In this document: in pieces, positions 2,098 through 58,695 of the stretch | Layout of the letters: every line of letters starts with the position of its first letter | Position numbering within the stretch: position 1 is the stretch's first letter | From: Mesaphorura yosii | Lineage: Eukaryota > Arthropoda > Collembola > Poduromorpha > Tullbergiidae | NCBI GenBank assembly: GCA_009869945.1 | Contig: WIXG01000001.1 | Coordinates: 310,001 to 374,000, forward strand | Reading direction: 5' to 3' | DNA length: 64,000 bases | Position numbers and translations under genes: made by a program | Notes under the pieces: generated by a model | What the model saw: only the letters and a program-made list of their open reading frames with translations | What the model was told of the DNA's origin: nothing | The model's database searches: none

Positions 2098-5000
2098 GTG
2101 CAGTAAAATGAGGACCGAATTGCCTGCCAATGCCTATAATTGCTGGTATACAGTGTATTCGTAGCGAATGTCATTGTTCAGTGTACTTGCGCGTGTGCGT
2201 ATTGCACGCGTAATAATCGAAGACATCATGCTGTCCGACAGCACGACGGCGAATTGCCTCATCTCATCTTTCTGTGCACTGAGCTGCACTCGTTACAATA
2301 TTCCTGAACCGCATGTGTTATCAGAAATACATAGATGCATGTACATAGATGGAAAGACAGACAATGGAAATCAGATCACTGCCGCTACCACCCAACAGCT
2401 TTTCAATACCGATGCGATATGAGAGCAATAACACACAAAACATTACATGAAAGGTGGAACGCTACTGTCGCTGTCGCTGATGCCCCTGCGTCCTGCCGTG
2501 AAATGCGCTTGGAATTGATTTGAAAGGAGAAATACTTCAAAGATGAAAACACGGAAATAAAAGAATTTACAACAGATAAATAGAGAAGCTCAACCTCAAG
2601 CAGGGTCGGCCACTCCGTACATTCCTATCTGTATTGTTACTGTGCGTGTGTATTCCAGAAGACATAACACGGTGAAATGGTCCAGGATCAGACGACGAGA
2701 CCACAGCCAGGATCGAGATTGGTTTTCCGTGACGATGTTATAAGATGCGATTCGTATTTTGTGCAGAAAACGAAGACGATGATAAAATTCTCATAAAGTC
2801 ATGACACGAGGAATTCATGCATGTAAGTATTCGCCATGTCTCTCTTCTGTTGTATTACGTAAAGATTTCTCCGACTGAGTCATCACTTTATGGTACGAGG
2901 AAGGCGACTCGACTCGGACCCTCTTCCTTCCTGTGCTCCACCACGAGAAGAAATTACAATTGGAATAATGGCACGCAGAACGCTGAAAATGTGTTTCTGT
3001 GACGAGCAAGCATCTTTCTTATCTCTTTGCAATGGTGCACTGTTAGAAATAAATGAGAATGGGAAGAATGAACCCGGACAGAGATTTGAATCTGTGAACA
3101 ACAAGCAGCAAGCTCAGGGTTTACGTTTTGTGCTACGACTGAATGAGAAAATTGCACAATTTTCTCCCAGCTGCGTTGTTGACTTCGTTTTGCATGGCAA
3201 TGGTAATTCCAATTGTATAATGGTTCGGGTATAAATTAGATTTTAAGAGGAAAGATAAAATACGAGTACGGGAAGAAAAGCGGCCTTAAAATGTCAAGCT
3301 ATTTCATCTTGAAACAAAAGAGCTGGCCAAGAACGAAGAACAGGAAGACGAGAGAAAGCAACCTGCTTCTGGCTGTTTCTCTGCGCAGCGCATTGTATAT
3401 TGTAAATATAAATGATAATATTTTATCTCGTTCATTCAGCTCAGTTCACAACAATAAAATACAGGCGTTATTATTATGCATGGGTTAACAACGTGTAGAA
3501 GAAGACGATTTTTGCAAACCAAATTCAAATTCTACCTTTTCGCATTGTAAACATTGCGCGCTTCAATGAACCCTTTGAAAGTTAGTTTCCCATTCCGGAG
3601 CTGCATGTAATCCGTCGAAATGCGTACCACACGCTACCCGTTTCATTCGTTCGCATTCGGACAATTCGACGTCAAATTACCGTTTGAGTTGACGTAAACG
3701 GTTTGAGTAGCCCACGATTAAGCTGAAATTCATGTCGGGCCTTGAAATTCCATTTTTGGATGGTATTTTACAGCTTGCATTTTGGACGCAGATTTTTTCG
3801 CCCAAAGAAGTGCACGATTCCATTTTGGTATCTCTCCACATCTTTTCCGCCGTGATCGTGGTCGTGATGAAATGCAGATCAGCCTGACTTATGACTTTAT
3901 TACACTTAATAACGCATTTGGCAAAGATTAAACTTTACACTACACATTCTGTACTCTGCACGAACTCTTTATTCCGTCTACGCCTGCAAGCTTTCGTCTC
4001 GTCTTAATAAGACCATAATTTATAGCCACAGTCCAAGGCGAAGTGGCGTAAAGCATTGAACTTGAATGCATTCGCTTCTTAACACATTGCTCACGACCGA
4101 CCAGCAAGCTAAAGAATTCCGTTATATTATTATTGCGTACTTTTGAATTAATTTTTCGTTATCACATCTTGCATCCACAATAATTTAAAACCCATAACTC
4201 TTCAGGCCCGCTTTTTTCGCCGCATATTTGTCTAAAAGTCCGTCGTAGCCGTGGACTTGACGAGAATTTTTAAGTGGACGGGCGTTATGAGAAAATGACA
4301 CAATAAAGTAATGACCCTGACAATAGCAGCATAAAGAAGTTGAGTACGTGTGACTCAATGACATTTTCACTCGCCAACTTTTTTCAGCACTTCTTTCTTC
4401 TCGATCCTGTTTTGCATTAATATATCTGTTATAATCTTGACAAGAAGAACGACCGACGACCGGCTCGTTTGGCTCTTTCATGATCGTATTCTCAAGCACG
4501 ATCTTTTCAAGCCTGCACTGTGTTTTTTTCAGTGCCAGCATTTTACCTTACGGCATCGCGTAATCTAATGTTCATGTAATACTTTGTAATATTTACTTAG
4601 AGACGCGGCGTAGCATTGCACTGGCAATCACTTGACTTGATTTTCTGGTAGCAGAATTCAGAATCCAAAAAACACATGCAACGAATTCATCCTGTCAAGT
4701 AAACTTCTTTTCAATTCACGTTTAACATTAACCCATTACGGCAGCCGAAGTCCATCACAAAATGATTGCATAAAGTTCTCGCTTCTTTACCTCTGCAAAT
4801 GTCAGTCAAGAGGACAACAGCGTGACATTGGACTTTGCCGTGAATCGTCAAATAAAGAAGGCGAGTTTGGCGTAAATCATGAATTGAAGATTGTGACAAG
4901 TTATTCTGCGGTGGGGATTTAAAACGAAGATGCGTCACAGCTGAGATCCCGTTAATTGAAACTGTGCTAGCGCTAATGCGAAATTTGCACGAAATGACAA

Positions 5001-8000
5001 ATCATGCCTTACCATTTAAAGAGGAATTTCGACTTTTCAATTCATGAAGGTCATTCTTATGTTTCTGCATTTTGCCTTTGGGCTTCGCGACAAAAACTCG
5101 AATTGAGAAAACTTCACTCTCCTGCAAGTATCGTAATTTATAATTGGACTCAGCAATTAAATCCCGCCTGCTTGTAATTATGGACAAATTAGCGAGCTCT
5201 TACAAGAGCGACAACATTCCGTCGCTTATGAATGGACGCCATTGAACATCGCCATAAACAATGTCGTGTACTTTATTAGATAGAAAACATGCATTTTACA
5301 TTAATATAAATATTAGATAATCTCTTTTCTTTCTCGTTTCATGCAAAATAATAAATACAGCACGACAGAGTCTCCGAAGACCAACTAAGGTAGAATGCGA
5401 CGGCGGCCGTGCATTATTATTAGGTTTTAGTCTCATTAGTTTCGGTACGTTGGAATTTTTATACGATGACGATGACGACGAGAAATTCAGCGTAATGCCG
5501 CGCACACTGAAGGGGTTATTATTATTACGGTTTTTATAAATAGGAAAACAGCCTTCCTAATACGAGACTGCAATACAAAAGATTACAAAATAATACAGCC
5601 GTCGAGCTCTTAAGCAACTCGTAAACTCGTTTTAAAGGTTTTTTTTGCTTATCTCAAACCGATCTTTTCATTTTTAAGACTCTCTTGGAACAAATTATGC
5701 AGGCTGGCAATAATAATTACGCGCTGGTTATTACTTTCGTCCAAGGCATCAGGAAAAGAGTAAAACACACTAATTTCAATAAGAAGACTTTCTTTTGCCC
5801 AAACGCGCAGCGCGAACGGAATTCTTCTGCTCTTGCTCTTCTCAATGGACCGAGCTTAAGTTAAATTACATTTTAAAGTAATAAGGGGCTTACAATTAAT
5901 TCTATGAAAATATTTTCCGGTAAGGAGTCTCATCATTGAATGGGCAAATAGCAAATGTTCTTTTCATTAAATGAACGTAAAATCCATCATGCATATAAAT
6001 AATATTGTTGTTTAGGGACAAGAAGTACTTTATGGGCTTTATGGAGTGTGGTTATTTTATTGCTTGTCCTTATGCAAATAATTCAGCGTAGATTCAAGCT
6101 CCTTATTGATGACTTCGAAACTACATGCGAAACATCTTAAAGAATCCCGGACACGGTTCTTTCATTGGCGCTTTACTTATTCGTCTCTATGAAACACCAT
6201 AATCATAAACCTGACCCTGCCACGTTGTAATCTTATAAATGAAACTTAACCGTTCGTTATGTTAATCCATTTACATTTGCCGTTGCCGTGGTCATGAATA
6301 TGGTAGAAATTCTAAGGTTCTTAGTTTACAATTTTACTTAAAATCACAAACTTGGGCGATGAGATGCATAAAACCATGTTGATCCTGATGATAATAAGAA
6401 AATATGGATGCATTTTAGGGACATGACACGTTTTGAGTTGAGAGTATGATAATTGGGGCACTTGAGATTTGAAACAATAATGCCATATGAACACGCATTC
6501 ATATCTTTGTCCAACTGAGGAAATTAGCTTCATTACACAAATAATTGTGTGTCAGACGTTAAATGAGATGCTCAGCTTGGTTGTCAGTGCGCCGGCGCTT
6601 CTTGTGTTAAGATGTAACTCAGAAAAACCAGGAAAATTTGCATTCACACGAATCTGCTCTAAAAAAAAAGAAGCAAATAACAAGTCTTGCTGTGCTCAGA
6701 ATGAAGTCATATATTAACTCGACCGGCCAACCGTGTACAATATGAATAGTGGACCTTTGTAATTTTACCGCAGAAATTAGGCTCTCATTTTAACTCGAGG
6801 AGTAATTTACGCGCTGAGCCAGATCTTCATGTAAGGAAAATGCTGTGGCACTCAAAACGCGTCCGCGTACGTATAGCATATCTCACGCGTTCAAGTACAG
6901 CGTGCAACAAGAAATTAGTAATGCCATTTCTATTCAGGTAATCTCCCGTTCTTAAAGTGTTCCTTATCTTAATCTCTTCGAGAGAAACGGTCACGAGAAA
7001 GGAGTAAAAATATATTTATGGTGTTAAATGCGTGTTTTCATTGCCATTACCATCAAAATGCATTTGCGCGTACATTAGTGTTGAAAAATTTACCTTTTTC
7101 TTGAAAGGTAGATTTGTGAGTGCGATGCGATGCAGCAAATGTATTATGCAGATGATGATGATACAATTGCGTATTCATTATAAAAATCATTTACTTGGTC
7201 TGGTCTTCGACTTCGTTCCGCATGCACCGTCATTAAAGATCAAGTGCATAGATACACAAACACGTACAATATTTTTAACCAAGCTAAGAGGCAAGGCAAT
7301 AAATGCGTCCGTTCGGACAGAACAGGCAAACTCATGTTTCATGTTTAAGTTTCAACTCTTCTCTACACGCAGTGGATAGCATTGAAATATTTATAAACCC
7401 GGTCTCAGAAGGAAACAATTAGAATATGAAGAGGATTCGAAACATGCAAAAAGGCGTGACACCAGAGACAAGAAATTCCAAATTTTTCATCATAAATTAT
7501 TCCAGGTCGAAAGATTATCCCGCGATGAGCAATGAGAGTTCGGCCCACTTCTTAAGTTAGTGTCTTTCCGTGCCAAAGCCATTTTCCCATCCACTGTCCA
7601 AATGTCAGTTTACAGACACTTGGCTCTCAGAAACAAATTCTTCGCCACAGCCCTACACAAAAACTGTTTTATTTATTTGCTTAATTAAGCATATTTCTTG
7701 GAAGAATTAAACCCAAGAATCAAAAATTCGTTTAGACTATTTAGGTTTCAATGGCAAGCAGGAAGAATCGGCATTGACAGCATGAAATACATGCAGCTAT
7801 TTACACGCTTAATAAAACCCTAAAGCATGGTAATATGATTTATGCGTGACTGATCTCGAGTGTATGTTTACGTTCAAAGACGAGGAAGATGGTCAAAGTC
7901 AAATGGTGCTGAGGGATTTTGATTTCGAGAAGCTGTGCACCGGCGCTGAAGAATTTCCTCGCGTTAGCGTCCGTCAGTCAAGTGAAGTTATGCGCGCAGG

Positions 8001-44107: not shown

Positions 44108-47100
44108 TTAATATTGTGATGAGTAATACGACTTTTGGCAAATCTCGCGAATTTTAGCTCGCAGTTTTTTGTGCGGGATTTCCGCGTTGCTGTAAAAGTC
44201 TCTGGTCCACCTCAAGTTGTGCTTGTGGCTGTTTAAAAGAATTGTACGTCACGATCACATGAAAACAATTGCCACTTATCGCGTAAAAGTCTCACCACAC
44301 TGTCGAGTCGACATGCTCCTGGTCAACCACAAGGAAGTTCGCAATCCATAAACAGTTCCTTTTCCCAAAAATGTTATTGGAAATTCTGGAAATCCAGAAC
44401 AAAATCTTTTCCATAATGGCAATTTGCTCAAGCTGGACCAGCAAATGGTGCGTTCTTCCTTGTTGTACGACGACCTTTGCAATCGCCAGGGTTAGAGCCG
44501 TATACCGATGATCTAAAGTGTAAATTATGACGTACTTTGATTTCGGTGACCGCCAAACCAATCAGGAGGTTTAACAGTATTATGGGCATGACGAATACGA
44601 AGAGTCCAAAAAATATTTGTACCACGACCAAAGAGCAAGGACTTCTAATTACATTCTGAGGATTGTAGAAGAGGTCGATGTAATCCAGTTCACCGCTCAT
44701 CATTACGACTGATTTGACAAGGGCGGTGGGAAGATACCGAAATTGTTGATTCTGCGATCAAAGTAATGATGAATTTTTAAGTGAGGTTTTTGCTATAGTT
44801 TATGACTTACTCCTGGCAAAAGAATCTTGAACGTGAACGTGAATGCTATCAAAAGTGGAAGGAATGCCAGTACCAGCCAAATGGATCTTCGAGTGACCTG
44901 AAAATGAGAGACTTGAATATTTCATACCAAATAAGGGGAATTGAATAAAAAATTCTCACTGTTTTGAGCACTGATACATATTTGCCAGCCTGTGGAATCT
45001 TTCCGATTTGATGAATCAGGACAATCCAGGAAACACATAGTCCAAACTGTAATAAGGTGGAAGCAAATGACCTGATGACCTCAGAATCGTGACTTGGACG
45101 GTAGGACGAAGTGTGAAGAACTTACTCCAGCGACGGTGTACCGCCAGTCTTTCAGCTCATCGCCATGGACAAAGATGGACCCACCATTAACCGCCATGAG
45201 AATTCCATCCATCAATTGCCAAAGCTTGGTTTGATGACTGTAAAATATTTCTCTGTGATAAAGTTGCCATAATTCCTTCACCACAATGTAGAAGGCGTAA
45301 ATTATCAAGATGGTGGCAATAAATTTCGAATGCATCGGCACACAACTCTTTGGAGTTGGTAACGGGGTCTTTTGCGGATCATCTCCATCTTGTGGTTTCG
45401 GTGATGGTAAGTGTGGAAGCGGTGGCGATCTTGTTGTAGTTGGTTTATAATCAAAATTTGGAAAACTGTGATGGTAGATAGGTTCACCGATGCCATCGTA
45501 AAAGGATCTAAATGAAATTGCTCCGTCCTTGTGGGTAGTACTGTTTGCGTCCTTGTACGGACATGAAATCGTATACACGTCAAATATGAACCATGAGTAA
45601 AGCAGGAGCATCATAAACTAAAAACAAACATGAGAACATATATGCAACATTGTATTAAGGTTTTGTGTCAGTTGTGTGGTGTGTCAAGGGCGATCACTTA
45701 CGTTTACGATCTGGTACGAATAAAATATGAATCTCAACTTCCTCCATTTCATAGCGATGAACGTCTTGACCAGTGGATGGTGCATGACGGGACTTTTGTC
45801 TTTAGACAACGAGAATTTCAGGAGGTTGATTAGGTACGTAGTTTCTTCTATTAGTTCGCAGGTGCGTGAAGACTTGAGGATTGTGTAGTTGTTCAGACCA
45901 ATTAAAGGGCTATGGAATTAAACAAGGCATATCACATCACCTCTTTATCTGAAAATGAGTGGAACTCTTATACCTGAATGTGTAGAATAATTCTGACGGC
46001 TTCGGCTTCGGCTTCTTTGTTTGGGCAATAATCTGCTCTTCAGATTTGGCCATGTCTTCGTTATAATCTATGTATCCTCCGCATGAGTTCAGATACTGCA
46101 CAATTGTCGAGGGCATTTTATTGTAAATTTGGTAAAGAAGATCCTGTTTTTCATGACCCTTAGATTTTGTCCATGGCTCATCGTAGATATCGCACCCGTA
46201 TGCCAGCAGAGATGTACACGCTGGAATCAAATTCTTTTCGACGGCAATTCGCAGGGCCGTCTTGTTGTTTTTGTCTCGAACATCCTTAACGGACTTGTAA
46301 TTGTTGTGGTCCTCTCGGAGTAAGATTTCCAGGCACTTCTGCCCTCCTTCCAAGTTTTCTGCAGTACGAGTTGACGTGAGCTGTCGTTCTCACAAGAGTA
46401 AATTAGTTGACTAACCGCTCAGCACGGCGCAATGCAACGGAGTTCGTCCTTCATTATCCATAACCCGAATTTTGACACTGAAATGTCTGAACAGGGTCTC
46501 TAGAATAATATCCAGGCCATACAAACATGTTAAATGTACCACAGTCATCCCTTTTGCGTCTTTCTTGAAGGTCACGGATATGCTACCGTGATGGTCAGCC
46601 AAAGAGCTGATGATTCCCTCGTACTTTTCTACATGTACGGGATTACGTAATACAGATGAAGAAAAGCGTCGTATGCTTGTGGATTATTTCGTGAGTTTAC
46701 CTTTTGGAAGCTCGCGTTTCCTCGCCCCCTGAATATTTTGCATCAATTCGTGCCCTATTGTGCTCCTCGTCCGACAAAACTCTAGTGCTTTGACTATATT
46801 ATGACTACCTCGTCGTTGAGCGATACTTAATGCTGTATCGTCGTGCTTGTCTCGCATATCAATGAACTGTACATCCTCGTAAATGTTGCTCTTTGTGTAG
46901 TTGGCTGAGGTTTCCTCTTCGTGCCTCGTCAGTGCGAAAATGATGAGAATGGCGTTAGACTCGGAGTATCTCGAAGCTACTCAGGCGAACAATAATGCAA
47001 CAGATTACATTATCTGGGCTGGAATCTTGATTCTGGTAGGGCCTGGCTTCGGAGAAGTGTGTACTAACCATCATAAGACACTGCGCAGTGTAGCGGTGTC

Positions 47101-48767: not shown

Positions 48768-51503
48768 ATGGGACCGTCAGTTGTTGCAACGAAATGGTAA
48801 GTTCCGTCGTCGCATAAAGTTTGAGTCTTGGTTAAATTGTGTACTCATTGAATAAATAGGTCCGCCCTACGCGAAGAAACGATCTCAAACACAGATCTGA
48901 ACTCCAACGAGGGAAGACCGGTTGCAAAGATCACTGACAGCGGCAAAATGGTGAGTGAGTGCGTGGTCAGAGTAAAGGACGGCCGAAAGGCGTACGGATC
49001 AAATGTGGTTCTCAATGAGCTGAATATGAACTTGGAGGCCGGGACAATGTAAGTGAGCACTGATTACATTTCGCCTCATACGTTAAAATGAGTATCTACA
49101 GATACGCCTTGCTGGGAGCTTCCGGTTGTGGCAAGACGACGCTTCTGTCTTGCATCGTCGGAACAAGGTCGCTTGACGCGGGCGACGTTCTTTTCTGTGG
49201 AGAGTCCATGGAGTCCATAATCAGGAACGGAGGACTGAGAAACCGAGTCGGTTATATGCCGCAGGTACGGATGACAACTCGAAAAGTTCTGTTAACCTGT
49301 ACGGTATTGGAACTTCTATGACTTGATAGGAGTTGGCCTTGTACAAAGAATTCACGATCAAGGAAGCTCTGATTTACTTCGGCCGCATTTTCGGGCTGTC
49401 GAACAACTACATTTCGCAGGAATCGATTTTCTTGATCAAATTTCTCCGGCTCCCGTCGGAAGACTCGCTAATACGCCAATTGAGCGGTGGACAGCAAAGA
49501 CGCACCTCGTTTGCAGTCGCTTTGCTGCATAAACCGCAACTCTTAATTCTAGACGAACCCACCGTAGGAGTGGATCCGCTACTGCGGCGGAGGTAGGTCG
49601 AATGTTGCCTGATTGGCACCCTTTTAATAACCCATCCAAAATGCTTCGTATTAGTATTTGGGAACATCTGAGAAGCCTGGTCAACGCTGGTAAGACCACG
49701 GTGGTAATCACGACGCACTACATCGAAGAAGCTCGGAGCGCGGACACTGTAGGAATGATGAGAAGCGGGCGGATCCTGGCAGAAGGTGCGCCGAACAATC
49801 TGCTTGAAACTCATCGCTGTTCCAGCTTAGAAGATCTGTTTTTAAGTTTGAGTCTCGTCGACGAAACAATGGGAGCCGTGAATAGGTCTACAAGACTTCC
49901 ATCCGAGGAGGCGAACAGCAAAAACTCGTCAAAATTGGACATGTTTCGCCCAAGATTTAACACTTCAAAGTGCTGGTCATCGTCGGAGCGCACAGCTTAC
50001 TTTAACAGACTTCGTGCGCTAATATTAAAGAACGTCCTTACCACGTACCGCCAATCGGCATACATTTTCTCATTCCTGCTCCTGCCCGCCATCGAAGTCC
50101 TTCTCTCCTGTTGGGCCGTTGGGAACGAACCCCACGATTTGAACTTTGGAATTGTCAACCTTGAAATACAACGAGTTAGCGGTTTAACTTACTCTGACCG
50201 AGCCAGCTGTGCATCGTATCTGAAAAACCGAACCTGCGACAATTTTCTACTCAGCTGTGATTATGTGGATGGCCTTGAAAAGTCGTCAACGTTCAACATC
50301 AAGCACTACAACACGTCTGAAGAGGCTTTGAAGGCCACTACGGAAGGGAAAACGTGGGGATTCTTAACGATTCCATCCAACTTCACACGACTCAGCTTGG
50401 AAAAGTCGCTGGCAGGCTTGTACGCTGATAACGAAACTGTGTTCAACTCACGGTTGCAGATTGACATGGACATGAGCAACATTCTCATTTCGACAGCAAT
50501 TCAACCTGCGCTGTTCGAAACATTTCGTGACTTGATGAAAAACATGGTGATTGAATGCGAGCCAAGTTATGTGCCAGAAGTTATCGATGGGCCTTTACTG
50601 GTTAAGTCCGCTTTCTTGTGATGCTACCCGCACCCGTTTCAGTCGACTCTAACTATTTTTTAATTTTGCAGTTTAATAAACCAATTTACGGGAAGGAGAA
50701 ACACAAAAGCGTGACCGAATTCATAATCACGGGTCTGGTCCTTTTGTAAGTCTCAAGAACATCAACATTACTCTAAAAATATTCATACGTTTACGTTCAT
50801 GCGTTGAATTTACGCAGAAGAGAATCAATTTCTTACTTATAGAGTCATGTACTTTGCTGCGATTTCAATCACCGGCATGAGCTACGTTCAGGAGAAGAAG
50901 CACGGGATGCTGGAGCGGACAATCGTGGCAGGCGTCTCCACGACCGAGATCATCACGGCGCAATTGCTCACACAATATATAATCGTCATAATTCAAATTA
51001 TCGTTTGTCTGTTTGTTGTTTTCGGAGCTTTTCAAATACCCATGAACGGTCAGATTGGATTCATCATGCTACTCATCCTCCTGCAGGGCAGTCTGGGAAT
51101 GCTGGCAGGTAATATAGCAATTTAATTGGATTACGGTTGAGGTTTGTGACCAAAACGAATCGGAACTATTTAATTGGTTCATGCAGGAATTGCGCTGTCC
51201 AGCATTTGCGATGAAGAGACAGTGGTTATGCAAATCAGCATCGCACTGACTGTCCCTTCGGTGATCCTCGGTGGTATTTTCTGGCCACTGTCAGGCATGC
51301 CAACTATTGCTCAGTACATCGCCATCACTTGTGTCCCGCAAACCGTTGCAAACGAATCTTTCCGATCCATGCTCATTCGAAATTGGGGTATCACACATCC
51401 CAGCGTCTGGCCAGGATTCGTGATCAGTATTGCATGGTTAATCTTCCTTTGGACGATCGCCATCGTGTTTGCGAAAAGGAGCGTCTCACCATCGTCGCGA
51501 TAA
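48768..51503 (+). CDS. ABC transporter, ABCH subfamily half transporter (copy 1)
   Basis: Eight exons join in phase: 48768-48796, 48860-49048, 49102-49264, 49330-49592, 49655-50600, 50672-50745, 50843-51108, 51187-51503 (TAA), giving 748 aa. The nucleotide-binding domain comes first: Walker A GASGCGKT (78-85), Q-loop Gln127, signature LSGGQQRR (178-185), Walker B LLILDEP with Glu203, H-loop His236. A membrane domain of ABC2 type follows, with a first helix near 345-365, an extracellular region of some 170 residues with conserved cysteines, then five or so helices to the end. NBD-TMD order and the LYKEFTIKE and [10 protein letters not shown] motifs fit ABCH, often annotated as ABCG20/23-like. 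All catalytic residues are intact. Half transporters must dimerise. In beetles and locusts ABCH-9C moves lipids to the cuticle surface; substrate here is unknown. Signal AATAAA is at 51576. Confidence 0.93.
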
Positions 51504-51575
51504 AGAGCATTCAAGCACTCATTCATTCACTCACTCACCTTATCTCAAACTCTATTGCTTATTGCTACGTATGTG

Positions 51576-51581
51576 AATAAA
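51576..51581 (+). terminator. poly(A) signal of ABCH copy 1
   Basis: AATAAA occurs 73 nt past the stop codon, the first in the 3' region and well placed for cleavage. Usage is inferred. Confidence 0.65.
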
Positions 51582-52178
51582 ATTTTAATTTTATACACCG
51601 TGAAGTCGATTGTGAAATGCAGGGTACCCGTGGGTAAGATTCTTTCTTACAAGTATTGATCCTGAAGGCAATTCGGCTGACAGGTTGTGATAAAGTAATA
51701 AACCATCGCGTAAGGTGAAAACTTCCACCAATTTGTAATTTATGGACAAAACTTGCCGACGATTGTCCCTAAACATACTCAATCATTGGACACAGCGTTA
51801 TAAGACCAAGAACACACGAAGACCAGACGGCCGAGACCATCTTTCGGTGTACATGAATTGCGACTGCGAAACCTATTTGCCAGTGCCAGAGCCTAGCTGT
51901 TTTTGTTACGTCGAGATTGCGATCCTCGTACAGGCAAGGCTACGTGAGAATTGATGACTTCTGACTTGCTTGTTGTCTGCTATTAGTACGACTTTAATTT
52001 ACCCTTGATTGTCGGGTAGATTTTTTTGGTGTCGGCATCGGTCCCTTGTTGGCTGCCAAAGGCAGTTTGAAGTTCATTATTCCAGTTTGTCTGCACATTA
52101 ATCCATTATGCTAATGGAATTAATAGTTGGATGGTTTTGATGTAATGCAATTTCCACTTCCATGCAAAAACGCGCAAA

Positions 52179-52215
52179 ATAAAAGGGCATTTTCACGTAG
52201 AGCTACCGCCACAGT
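52179..52215 (+). promoter_or_regulatory. putative core promoter of ABCH copy 2 (TATA-like plus initiator)
   Basis: A TATA-like AATAAAAGG starts at 52179 and an arthropod-type initiator ACAGT lies at 52211-52215, about 32 nt downstream, the usual spacing. Starting there gives a 5' leader of just under 100 nt with no upstream ATG before the start codon at 52309. This is inference from spacing and consensus only. Confidence 0.4.
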
Positions 52216-52247
52216 GAAGTTGAAGACCGATTCTCAATCTTTAGCGG

Positions 52248-52268
52248 ACTTCCAACGGGTTTGGAAGT
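52248..52268 (+). promoter_or_regulatory. hairpin in the putative 5' UTR of ABCH copy 2
   Basis: Arms ACTTCCAA and TTGGAAGT are exact complements separated by five bases (CGGGT). If the transcript starts near 52211, this stem-loop lies about 40 nt in and 40 nt before the ATG. A translation effect is possible but not shown; chance is not excluded. Confidence 0.35.
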
Positions 52269-52308
52269 TCAAGTCACATCAGTAAGGTAAAACACAGAGA
52301 AACAAGAA

Positions 52309-55092
52309 ATGGTTCCTCCGTCGATTGACCCCTTGACTTGGTAGGAATGTAATTTTTAACATTTACTTGACGAATCTAATTTGATACACATTATTCATAG
52401 GTGCGCCACGAATGAGACAATTGAATTAAGCGCAGAGGAAGCCAGACGCCAGAGTCATACCACCAATGCCAACAAGACAGTGAGGAATTCTCTGATCGTA
52501 GTGCGAAACGGTGTCAAGGGGTATGGAAGTAAACAGGTGCTGAAAAACTTGAATTTGAATGTGGAATCCGGAACGATGTAAGTTCAACAGATTCAACACA
52601 TGATACCAGGATTGTTTACTCATTGGATACTTAAAAACTTTAATTCTGATGCGATATATTAGATATGCTCTGTTGGGAGCGTCAGGTTGCGGAAAGAGCA
52701 CTCTGCTCCATTGCATCGTTGGGACAAAGGCACTAAACAGTGGACAGATATATTTCGATTGTGAATCAATGGAAGTGATCAAGAAAAAGGGAGGATTACG
52801 CCAGCGCGTGGGCTACATGCCTCAGGTAAGTCGATAAAGTCAAAGCGAATTAATGCTTTCTCTATCAAACGGTTGTCTTTGGCAGGAACTTGCGCTGTAC
52901 AAAGAATTCACCATAAAAGAATCGCTCCTTTACTTTGGACGCATTTATGGCTTGACGAAAGATTTTATCGCGCAACAGACGGAGTTTCTCGTTCAATTTC
53001 TCCAGCTTCCATCCGCAGACGCGCTGATTGGGCAGATGAGTGGTGGTCAACAAAGGCGGACATCGTTTGCAGTTGCTCTGTTGCACGCGCCGCGCCTTCT
53101 CATCCTTGACGAGCCCACCGTCGGTGTGGATCCATTATTGAGGAAAAGGTAATGTTTGTCAATTAAAATGTTTATCAAAATATGGCTCGAAAATTTCTAT
53201 AAATTCTTTATAGTATTTGGGAGTACTTGCGTAAAGTTGTAGACGCCGGAAGCACAACCGTCATCATTACGACTCATTACATCGAAGAGGCAAAGGATGC
53301 TGACGCAATTGGAATGATGCGAAGTGGCCGAATACTCGCTGAGGGTCCACCCGAACCATTATTAGCAGCCAACAATTGTTCCAACTTGGAGCAATTATTT
53401 CTGACGCTGAGCATGCAGGACGCGTCTCAAGGTCAGGGGCAGGAACAATTCAAAGTAAAAACTGGAAACGACGTAACAGTCGAAATTGCTAACACGCCAG
53501 AAAATCTCAGGAAGAATACGGCGCTAATGTCTCAGATGATTTGCAACCCGTTTCGCGATTACGACTTTCAAGCATATCGCAACCGTCTGAGTGCCCTCAT
53601 CCGCAAAAACGTCATTTTCACGTACCGACAATTTACGTACATCTTCGTGCTTCTCCTCTTTCCGGCGATTGAACTCTTGATGTGCTGCTGGGCCGTTGGA
53701 AATGATCCTTGGGGACTTGCGTTTGGAGTTGTTAACCACGAACTGAAGCAGTATCACATCGACAAGGATTTAGTCAACCAAACCACCTGCGATGAACTTG
53801 CGAACAAAACCTGTGATTTCATGCTGAGCAGTTGTGATTTTGTGAGTGAGATACAAAAGTCTGACACATTCAAGTTGAAGCATTTTGATTCAGACGAACA
53901 AGCACTGAATGCGGTGAAGGATGGCGATATTTGGGGTTTCCTCGCAATTCCACATAATTTTACTCTACTCGGCATGGAGAAGGCGCTTGCTGGACTGTAC
54001 GCGGACAGCGAGACGGTCACCAATTCGCAAGCGCGTCTGGAGATGGACATGAGTAATTTTTATGCATCGGGTACAATGAGAAGAGATCTGTATATGATCA
54101 TCAACGATTTAATGAAGAAGCGAATTGCTGAGTGTGAGCCGACTTATCTGACAGAAATCCTGGACGGCCCGATTCGGGTAAAATTCTAAAACTAGCTTTT
54201 GGATTTGGATGCGATGCATATTTACGGGTAAAAGAATTATTATTGTTTCAGTTTGATGGACCAGTTTACGGAAAAGTGAACCAGGCGTTGACGGATTACA
54301 TGAGCACCGGGGTTCTTTTGATGTAACTAGAATGTGTTTAATTTGTCGAGCTGGACTAATTGTTGGATAATCTTAAGGGTCATGTATTTCGCTGCCATTT
54401 CCATCACCGGAATGAGTTACGTCATGGAGAAGAAGCAGGGCATGCTGGAGCGGACAATCGTGGCTGGTGTCTCAACAACGGAAATCATCACGGCACAATT
54501 CCTGACCCAATACATCGTCATATTCATACAAACTCTGCTCTGTCTTGGAGTTGTATTCGGTGTATTTAAACTTGAGGTTAACGAACAGCTTGGCTTGATT
54601 ATTCTCCTCATCCTGCTTCAAGGCAGTCTTGGAATGTTAGCAGGTACGGATGGGTAAATGCATTGAAAAGAGAAGTTCATAACTCTTCTTGTTCCTCTGC
54701 AGGATTCTTTTTATCCAGCATTTGTGATGAAGAGACGGTCGTCTTGCAATTAAGCAGTGCGGTGACGATTCCATGCTTGATTCTTGGAGGTAGAAAAATT
54801 AATCTGAAATCTCAACTCATTTAATCTCTAATTGGAGCTTAACTTATTGCTTATACCCTTTACAGGAACAATTTGGCCACTTGAAGCGATGCCCACGTTC
54901 CTCCGTTACTTCTCCGTGATCTTCGTCCCACAAACAGTCGCAAACGAGTCATTGAGGTCAATGGTGATCCGTAATTGGGGATTCACCCATTCACATGTTT
55001 GGCCGGGTTTCGCTGTGACTGTCGCATGGATTCTTGTCCTCTGGACCGTCTCAATAATTTTCGCCAAACGGAGTGTATCACCAAAGAGCTAA
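52309..55092 (+). CDS. ABC transporter, ABCH subfamily half transporter (copy 2)
   Basis: Nine exons join in phase: 52309-52340, 52401-52577, 52663-52825, 52886-53148, 53214-54177, 54252-54322, 54378-54643, 54703-54789, 54866-55092 (TAA), giving 749 aa. Walker A is GASGCGKS (75-82), the signature is MSGGQQRR (175-182, Met in place of the first Leu), Walker B LLILDEP has Glu200, and the H-loop His is at 233. The membrane domain matches copy 1 throughout, including the two conserved extracellular Cys-rich segments and VANESLRSM near the end. Exons 3, 4 and 7 have exactly the same lengths as in copy 1 (163, 263, 266 nt) and all shared introns keep phase, so the genes are tandem duplicates. Copy 2 has one extra intron (54790-54865) that splits the last exon of copy 1. 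The first coding exon (about 10 residues, ending in TG before the donor) was placed by analogy with copy 1. Substrate unknown; cuticular lipid export is the family precedent. Confidence 0.92.
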
Positions 55093-55963: not shown

Positions 55964-56757
55964 ATGGCTGGCGAACAACAACAGTTTTGCCTGCGCTGGA
56001 ATGATTTTCAGTCCAACATCGTGACATGCTTTAAACATCTTCGAACTGAAAGAAGCTTCACTGATGTGACTCTGGCTTGTGATGGACAAACTTGTAAGGC
56101 TCATAAAATGGTCCTCTCGGCGTGCTCGCCTTACTTCAAGGCACTTTTGGAGGTAATTTTAAACCTTAGATTTTTATGATTAGTGGTTGTTTGCACAGTA
56201 CAGTTGTGAAATGATGAAATCTCGAGTCTGGACAAAAATGATGGTACTCAAGCCAAAAGGATTCTGAAAATAGTAAATGGTTAAACAAATGAACGTTGTT
56301 CCTTCACAATAAGCCAACCATAATCTAAAAGATGTACTAATGATTTTCATGGAAGGATGTGATAACTAATTGGAGTTTTACTTAATTTGTAGAACAATCC
56401 ATCGAAGCATCCCATCATTATCTTGAAAGACGTTCCATTCAATCACTTGCAGTCAATCTTGGAATTCATGTATGCTGGTGAAGTCAACGTTCCACAAGAT
56501 TCGCTTCCCGCATTTCTCAAGACCGCTGAGAGGTTGAAGGTCAAGGGCTTGACCGAAGGTGAGCTTTGCCTTAAGCTATCAAGCCCACTAGGGCATCAGT
56601 TAACGTATGATGACATATTTTGAGTCTTGAACCAATGATGGTACTCATGCTAAAAGGATTCTGAGCAGATTTCTTAATTTTTTTAAAAATGCATTCAACA
56701 CTACATATTACCTAATTAAGTTTATGTGTATACTTTTCAGTCAAGCGTCAACCATAA
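55964..56757 (+). CDS. BTB/POZ-domain-only protein (lola/tramtrack type)
   Basis: Three coding exons, 55964-56152, 56393-56558 and 56741-56757 (TAA), join in phase and encode 123 aa. The protein opens with QQFCLRWNDFQSNI, continues with FTDVTLACDGQTCKAHKMVL and ACSPYFKALLE, and after the intron with HPIIILKDV, LEFMYAGEVNV and LKVKGL. This is the arthropod BTB domain of the lola, tramtrack and bric-a-brac group, which dimerises in nuclear transcription factors. The intron after KALLE is common in this family. The ATG is well placed and followed by the family's usual start. Unlike typical members, no zinc finger, HTH or pipsqueak domain follows: the third exon adds only five residues after the BTB domain. 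Retention of intron 2 would give a different short tail ending near 56621. It could be a BTB-only dominant-negative partner, or the common exons of a gene whose DNA-binding exons lie elsewhere. Confidence 0.85.
56237..56267 (+). repeat. intronic direct repeat copy A (BTB gene, intron 1)
   Basis: A 31-nt core beginning AATGATGGTACTCA and ending AAAAGGATTCTGA is shared with copy B at 56634-56664, with two mismatches. Weaker similarity extends about 35 nt upstream. It lies 85 nt after the intron 1 donor. Confidence 0.85.
56634..56664 (+). repeat. intronic direct repeat copy B (BTB gene, intron 2)
   Basis: This matches copy A at 29 of 31 positions and lies 76 nt after the intron 2 donor, so both copies occupy equivalent places in successive introns. 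Confidence 0.85.
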
Positions 56758-57299: not shown

Positions 57300-57305
57300 T
57301 TTATT
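57300..57305 (-). terminator. poly(A) signal of the DUF4246 gene
   Basis: TTTATT on the plus strand reads AATAAA on the minus strand, about 130 nt past the stop codon at 57433. Usage is inferred. Confidence 0.6.
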
Positions 57306-57432: not shown

Positions 57433-58695
57433 TCAATCGCGTCTGCCACCGCCGCAACATTTTCGCTCGGAACGCTCGTCGTGGAATCCTTCCCGGTACT
57501 GCAGAGCCTGTCCAATATCATACGCCCCAGACACATTTCCAACGGCTCCATACTCCTTCGCGTCTGTGTACCAATCCATTTGTTGTGGAGGAACAGCGCT
57601 GGTCGACGGTATCTGCCAGGTTGGGTCCAAGAGGAAGAGCACCAATACTTTTCTATGACCAGTGTTCGCCTCGGACAGAAGTCGGTATGTCTCCACTCGA
57701 TGATGATAAGTGTTAGGAAACACGACGATTCGCCCAGTCTTGCAGTGAACATGGCCAAGCTGAACGAACTCTGTGGCAGATGCGCTGAGGTTTGCAGTAG
57801 CCGCTGGAGCAAACCCCTTTGGTAGTTCCAGTTTGAACTGAAGATCCGTCTGCGTTATGTTTTGTATGTCGTAATAATAAATGGCGGTTGCAATTATGTG
57901 CTCGTTGTCCAAGCCTTCAGTGTGCCACTGTGAGCCAGGAAACATGGAATACTGTGTGTTCACATGAACAGATTTTATGTTGAAGACCAACTGCAGACTT
58001 CGACCAGCTAAAGTCACAGGCGCCGGTCCTGTGCGTGACACCAATCCCAGTGATCGCTCGAAAAGAGGAAAGATGAACGCAAGTATTGAACGCAAATCAT
58101 GATAAAGTTCCTGGTATGTGCCAGGATGCAGATTGTTGATATACGACTTCAACTCTAAGTCTCCAGTGTGCGGGTTGATCACAACGTCCGTGGGCAGCAT
58201 TTGGTAGCGACTGGAATACTCCGGATCCATGTTTCTCGACGGGTCCAAGTCCAGGCGTGCCACCGAAAGACGTCCGTCGCTCATCATTCTTGTCACTCCC
58301 GACGTGTACGGGTAGAGGCCATTGTCCACCAAGTTTAGCAGTTTGTGACTTGGGTACTGGTCCCATCGATGCTTGTCCCAAGACAAGTCTCCTTCAAGTC
58401 TTCTAATATGTTCCGCGAAGCTTGTAACGACTGACGGAGCTAGTAAATTGTCTCGTTGAATGATACCATATTCCTCCAAGTCGATCGTACCTGGTACTGG
58501 ATGTTTCCAGACTGGGTTGAGCCTTTCTGGCATTTGCTTTTCGAAGATGGAGCTGAAGTCGAGTTTCTGGACGTGTGTCTGAAGACTAAGTTCCAGTGCT
58601 GTTTGGTGTGGACACTTGAATCCAGAACCACTGTCGAATTGAGCCAACACCAAGGTCGAAGAAATGGCCAGCTGGATGAAGACTGGAAGAAGCAT
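57433..58695 (-). CDS. secreted DUF4246 protein, fungal-type, dioxygenase-like
   Basis: A single open frame encodes 420 aa from the ATG at 58695. I chose this ATG because the frame above it has only a TTG start (58809), and because it begins with a clear signal peptide (MLLPVFIQLAISSTLVLAQ). Residues 184-190 read SYINNLH, followed by WHTEG (257-261), NEHIIATAIYYYD, GRIVVFPNTY, HHRVE (331-335), GHRK (346-349) and PSTSAVPPQQ. These are the hallmark segments of DUF4246, common in fungi. His258-x-Glu260, His332 and Arg348 are spaced like the metal and 2-oxoglutarate ligands of Fe(II)/2OG oxygenases, so an oxygenase role is likely but unproven. Fungal members are usually longer and lack a signal peptide. 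There is no intron in the coding region, unlike the other genes here; a GTGAGT on the minus strand near 58990 could end a 5' UTR exon. Horizontal transfer from a fungus is plausible. Confidence 0.85.
   Translation of the reverse strand: MLLPVFIQLAISSTLVLAQFDSGSGFKCPHQTALELSLQTHVQKLDFSSIFEKQMPERLNPVWKHPVPGTIDLEEYGIIQRDNLLAPSVVTSFAEHIRRLEGDLSWDKHRWDQYPSHKLLNLVDNGLYPYTSGVTRMMSDGRLSVARLDLDPSRNMDPEYSSRYQMLPTDVVINPHTGDLELKSYINNLHPGTYQELYHDLRSILAFIFPLFERSLGLVSRTGPAPVTLAGRSLQLVFNIKSVHVNTQYSMFPGSQWHTEGLDNEHIIATAIYYYDIQNITQTDLQFKLELPKGFAPAATANLSASATEFVQLGHVHCKTGRIVVFPNTYHHRVETYRLLSEANTGHRKVLVLFLLDPTWQIPSTSAVPPQQMDWYTDAKEYGAVGNVSGAYDIGQALQYREGFHDERSERKCCGGGRRD

Follow-up and report, generated by a model that had tools for sequence, protein, structure and literature searches.

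The arthropod genome analyzed here harbors a DUF4246 gene which, in our judgment (probability about 0.6), is a resident gene of microbial ancestry, taken up long ago and now likely to encode a secretory-pathway or extracellular oxygenase. The gene is real and lies on the minus strand of the window (i.e., the whole 64,000-base stretch of DNA under analysis, bases 310001-374000 of the 970,415-base contig C1, from an assembly of 93,006,257 bases and 1127 contigs). The intact open frame reported there by a first-pass annotation stood up well: the protein spans 420 codons counted from the first ATG within a 466-codon stop-to-stop frame, while shuffling the bases of the 5 kb around it 500 times gave stop-to-stop frames of at most 239 codons. 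The features of the gene in window coordinates are:

57433-58695, minus strand: DUF4246 coding sequence for 420 amino acids, a single exon, stop codon counted in
58639-58695, minus strand: signal-peptide-like hydrophobic start, residues 1-19 (MLLPVFIQLAISSTLVLAQ), proposed from hydropathy
58039-58476, minus strand: first DUF4246 block, profile positions 29-175, from the Pfam profile alignment
57562-58005, minus strand: second DUF4246 block (profile positions 241-400), where the putative metal and 2-oxoglutarate site lies
57916-57924, minus strand: H258-x-E260, putative iron ligands, invariant in all four aligned sequences
57700-57702, minus strand: H332, putative distal iron ligand, invariant in all four
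57652-57654, minus strand: R348, putative 2-oxoglutarate-binding arginine, invariant in all four
57300-57305, minus strand: AATAAA polyadenylation-type signal, about 130 bases beyond the DUF4246 stop codon

The genome itself reads as that of an arthropod, since the cuticle-protein model Chitin_bind_4 has 66 matches in it, one of them on C1 at 886 kb. A search for COX1 found no match, and a springtail is our guess as to the host. Within the window, Pfam searches identified an LRR gene, a DM9 gene, an ion-channel gene and the two nearest neighbors:

49533-54657, plus strand: ABC transporter exons, three of four scanned pieces above the Pfam cut-off (the piece at 53203-54189 falls below it, 28.6 vs. 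31.6)
55964-56757, plus strand: BTB/POZ gene, convergent neighbor, exons 55964-56152, 56393-56558 and 56741-56757 assigned by eye (the Pfam BTB match lies in exon 1 only)

The ion-channel gene (44428-46389, minus strand) combines ankyrin-like and ion-transport exons in the manner of a TRP channel, with Ion_trans above its Pfam cut-off and the ankyrin repeats below theirs. Just outside the window, 15.7 kb past the DUF4246 gene, a Toll-like receptor gene (C1:384419-389446; L020:419-5446) forms a single open frame of 1675 codons, with leucine-rich repeats and a weak TIR match (e-value 0.0033, below cut-off). The DUF4246 gene thus shares C1 with BTB, ABC transporter, Toll-like and cuticle-protein genes, and its physical linkage to arthropod genes, as first proposed, is confirmed by the animal-type genes on either side. 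The accompanying statement that the gene has no introns while all its neighbors have several was right for the gene, which is a single exon, but not for the neighbors, as the Toll-like gene is one frame. A rival reading is that a fungal fragment was joined into an arthropod contig through contamination or misassembly. Contig ends elsewhere in the assembly do share exact 119-base overlaps of the kind left by short-read assemblers. However, the window gene sits in one place on one contig, with zero N in the window and the next 10 kb, its codon usage is host-like, and further copies occur on other contigs; the genome also lacks any match to DUF4246_N or Fungal_trans_2, a weak argument as both models were silent in all controls. 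We therefore regard an assembly artifact as highly improbable.

Membership of the DUF4246 family, the initial assignment, is well founded: the window protein matches Pfam PF14033 (DUF4246) with an e-value of 1.3e-68 and 232.5 bits (cut-off 26.7), and a copy on contig C1074 does so with an e-value of 6.5e-67. The window match falls in two blocks, at positions 29-175 and 241-400 of the 401 in the profile (a whole-profile match being no curated requirement). Positions 176-240 are missing from the window protein and 178-239 from the C1074 copy, a middle segment covering 62-65 positions of the profile. The Pfam search found no DUF4246_N (PF21666) in the window protein at e-values up to 1, nor was there a match in the whole genome, where the model's silence was shared by every control; in place of that leading domain, the arthropod copies have a signal-peptide-like start. 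Judging from these alignments, the window and C1074 proteins have a shortened DUF4246 form in common. An NCBIfam search with both returned no match.

Searching the genome with the window protein recovered three places, namely the window gene itself, C1074:5609-6559 and C977:13229-13600, and the DUF4246 profile recovered the identical three loci. The C1074 copy is 48% identical to the window protein over residues 72-417, and the truncated C977 copy 50% identical over residues 270-417. At its start the C1074 copy has a hydrophobic stretch (MTNLRAFFVFVLALSAGKARG), behind which a 79-base GT-AG intron (5507-5585) is probable; past this putative intron the frame continues, giving a 350-amino acid protein. 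Single-exon structure had been taken to fit horizontal entry, an argument that we reject in view of the single 1675-codon frame of the Toll-like neighbor and the probable intron in the C1074 copy.

Comparison of C977:11018-13788 with C1074:1-8629 indicates that about 6 kb of C1074 is absent from C977, which truncates the DUF4246 copy there. The two contigs have the 3′ part of that copy and its downstream flank in common (96% identity over 483 bases, 94% over 2000), their first 201 bases are 99% identical, and one end of each overlaps the start of C481 by 119 bases (100% and 99.2% identity). Since both ends overlap C481 in this way, C1074 and C977 are likely two versions of one region differing by presence or absence between haplotypes, and less likely to carry separate genes. 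The deletion in the C977 version looks to have removed a GMC oxidoreductase gene together with the 5′ portion of the DUF4246 gene there.

This GMC oxidoreductase gene (C1074:2737-4129, minus strand, perhaps 2529-4449; L010), with several exons judged by frames, lies between the DUF4246 copy on one side and an O-methyltransferase gene on the other. The O-methyltransferase gene spans the C1074/C481 overlap (L010:1-739; L026: ~1-515). All three matches to PF00891 in the genome fall in the C481/C1074/C977 region. Five plasmid records match the C1074 part of this O-methyltransferase, the best two being cyanobacterial (Nostoc, 40.9%, and Gloeothece, 36.5%), which makes it a second candidate for foreign origin in the neighborhood of the DUF4246 copy. 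It is tempting to speculate that these genes represent an animal biosynthetic or detoxifying cluster made up partly of foreign genes, in which a branch of secreted animal DUF4246 oxygenases, its N-terminal domain swapped for a signal peptide, would have placed one copy in a small O-methyltransferase/GMC oxidoreductase/DUF4246 metabolic cluster (C1074/C481), complete in one version of the region but missing some of its parts in the other, although we hold this extended scenario to be unlikely.

As to function, an alignment of two arthropod and two bacterial proteins shows H258-x-E260, H332 and R348 to be invariant in all four. In 2-oxoglutarate/Fe(II) oxygenases such residues are expected to run HxE...H and then arginine, as they do here, and H258, E260 and H332 provide the HxD/E...H pattern of the metal triad, here as a sequence pattern. 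Profile matches are fainter: to the 2OG-Fe(II) oxygenase family PF13759 (cut-off 27), the window protein scores 18.4 bits (e-value 0.003) and the C1074 copy 20.9 bits (e-value 4.9e-4), while the two bacterial proteins give no match even at an e-value of 1, i.e., two of the four aligned proteins match. The oxygenase family phrog_81 is matched by the C1074 copy at an e-value of 1.9e-4 and by the window protein at 0.14, the best PHROG for the latter being a family labeled DNA endonuclease V (0.0056), ahead of the oxygenase family. Likeness to PF13759 and phrog_81 thus consists of the ordered HxE...H and arginine, with weak local matches that cover the distal histidine, whereas the scores of the window and C1074 proteins lie below the Pfam cut-off. 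PDB sequence searches returned nothing under an e-value of 0.24, and a single-sequence structure prediction of the window protein (pLDDT 30) was unusable for the fold. The DUF4246 protein likely works as a 2-oxoglutarate/Fe(II) oxygenase, and because its PF13759 scores are below cut-off we do not file it as a proven member of that superfamily.

Both arthropod copies also appear to carry a signal peptide. Hydropathy at the N-terminus, as the mean over 12 residues, is 2.10 and 2.38 for the arthropod copies vs. 0.78 and 0.91 for the bacterial proteins, which lack the hydrophobic start seen in the window and C1074 proteins. We infer the signal peptide from these values with some caution, since a second 12-residue stretch elsewhere in the window protein reaches 1.97. 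The window protein has three N-glycosylation-type sequons, which carry no weight by themselves.

Evolutionarily, the claim that the gene is still under selection is supported by several signs. Its own frame is intact, the copy 48% identical to it is free of stop codons, and over 124 codons C1074 and C977 differ by six synonymous vs. two amino acid-changing substitutions, plus a 9-base in-frame gap. For the pair formed by the window gene and the C1074 copy (345 aligned codons), synonymous divergence is saturated (pS 0.81, with dN 0.52), and the ratio is therefore below one, without a definite value. Measured against pooled host exons, the codon-usage distance is 0.164 for the window gene (0.153 when the pool is smaller) and 0.202 for the C1074 copy, within the spread of 0.113-0.288 obtained by leave-one-out for nine host segments; the corresponding distance for a Streptomyces gene is 0.445. 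With a host-like GC3 of 0.533 as well, odd composition as a sign of transfer was rejected. Host-like codon usage and saturated divergence between the copies mean that the DUF4246 gene is old in the lineage, or at least fully host-adapted.

Composition of this kind shows only that the gene looks native, and fits vertical descent as well. DUF4246 could be an ancient eukaryotic (opisthokont) family that some arthropods and fungi have retained but most model animals have lost, a history to which the deeply diverged copy with a probable intron and an architecture unlike that of the bacterial proteins would also be suited. However, the family is not known from fly, worm or human, and its absence there would require many independent losses. 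The PF14033 model was also silent in 14 control genomes, although this says little as the named controls are prokaryotes. Overall, we consider vertical inheritance unlikely.

Among 72,556 plasmid records searched by tblastn, three matched the window protein. In the aligned stretches, identity is 33.2% for Streptomyces sp. NBC_00158, 30.9% for Streptomyces sp. NBC_01431 and 38.1% for Embleya sp. NBC_00888, where the match takes in 35% of the query. Both Streptomyces proteins are annotated as DUF4246 domain-containing (WP_331728458.1, WP_329467979.1) and the Embleya frame is unannotated. Since these three records encode the family, it is not confined to fungi. The initial label “fungal-type” thus holds only in part: such proteins are encoded by actinobacteria as well, and two portions of the bacterial proteins are missing from the arthropod copies. 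We take the family to be mainly fungal. In the Streptomyces NBC_00158 record, annotation places the DUF4246 gene near genes for a phytanoyl-CoA dioxygenase, a 2OG-Fe dioxygenase, an ATP-grasp protein, a methyltransferase and an MFS transporter (L016:5777-15977), surroundings that look like a biosynthetic cluster.

The 31-38% identity of the three actinobacterial proteins over matched parts, and putative active-site residues identical to the arthropod ones in the two Streptomyces proteins aligned, raise the question of a bacterial rather than fungal donor. The bacterial proteins are 502 amino acids long (vs. 420 for the window protein), however, and both Streptomyces proteins scanned combine DUF4246_N with a complete DUF4246 domain (profile positions 2-395; 399 and 391 bits), whereas neither DUF4246_N nor the middle segment is present in the window and C1074 proteins, which thus differ from the bacterial ones in architecture. 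The three bacterial proteins are moreover ~80% identical among themselves, far nearer to each other than to the arthropod ones, and could be fungal imports. Acquisition from an actinobacterium such as Streptomyces seems rather improbable to us, and a fungal donor may be more likely, given the mainly fungal distribution of the family.

Searches of other collections added no relatives. A set of 50,697 phage records yielded no DUF4246 match, and peptide pattern scans of viral contigs confirmed no relative. The same was true of pattern scans of prokaryotic genome contigs, a result which is uninformative because the patterns (e.g., E[LI][KE]SYINN) were derived from the arthropod copies; some of them fail on the very Streptomyces proteins recovered from the plasmid records by tblastn. 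Main texts in the literature searched do not name DUF4246, and the portion of PMC13342648 available to us holds nothing on the family. Where the string “PF14033” occurs, in papers on Plasmodium or other unrelated subjects, we take it to be a locus tag.

Taken together, the mainly fungal distribution of the family, the precedent of springtails and the bacterial relatives make horizontal origin likely for this resident gene. The DUF4246 gene would have been acquired long ago, probably from a fungus and less likely from an actinobacterium, and would then have been duplicated and have adopted host codon usage. Along the way it may have acquired a signal peptide, or been fused to one, while its N-terminal domain and middle segment were lost. 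In the resulting enzyme, H258, E260 and H332 would hold the iron and R348 the 2-oxoglutarate, allowing it to hydroxylate or otherwise oxidize a small molecule, e.g., a dietary toxin or metabolite, either extracellularly or within the secretory pathway.

If this is right, an uncharacterized oxygenase family joins the microbial enzymes adopted by soil arthropods, with a changed cell compartment. Because no main text in the literature searched names DUF4246, a function for it, if found, would probably be new for the entire family. Less expected are the change of architecture, as read from the sequence comparisons, and the neighborhood of the second copy, with its O-methyltransferase (best plasmid match Nostoc, 40.9%). 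Surprise is otherwise moderate, since springtails with hundreds of foreign genes have already been reported: 809 genes of Folsomia candida (2.8%) were judged foreign, 39.9% of them bacterial and 32.8% fungal (PMC5490193). GH45 cellulases, for their part, have 12 matches in the present genome, on contigs C873, C561 and C430 (L023-L025) and, below cut-off, on C567; several are interrupted by stop codons, where introns may lie or the copies may be broken. Springtails and oribatid mites have horizontally acquired genes such as GH45 cellulases, and Folsomia candida an isopenicillin N synthase (PMC13084967, PMC5490193). Like these acquired genes, the DUF4246 gene is of foreign type and has animal genes as neighbors, in a genome that has GH45 matches too, and it is probably a further case of microbial genes at home in an arthropod, of a kind already known from soil arthropods.
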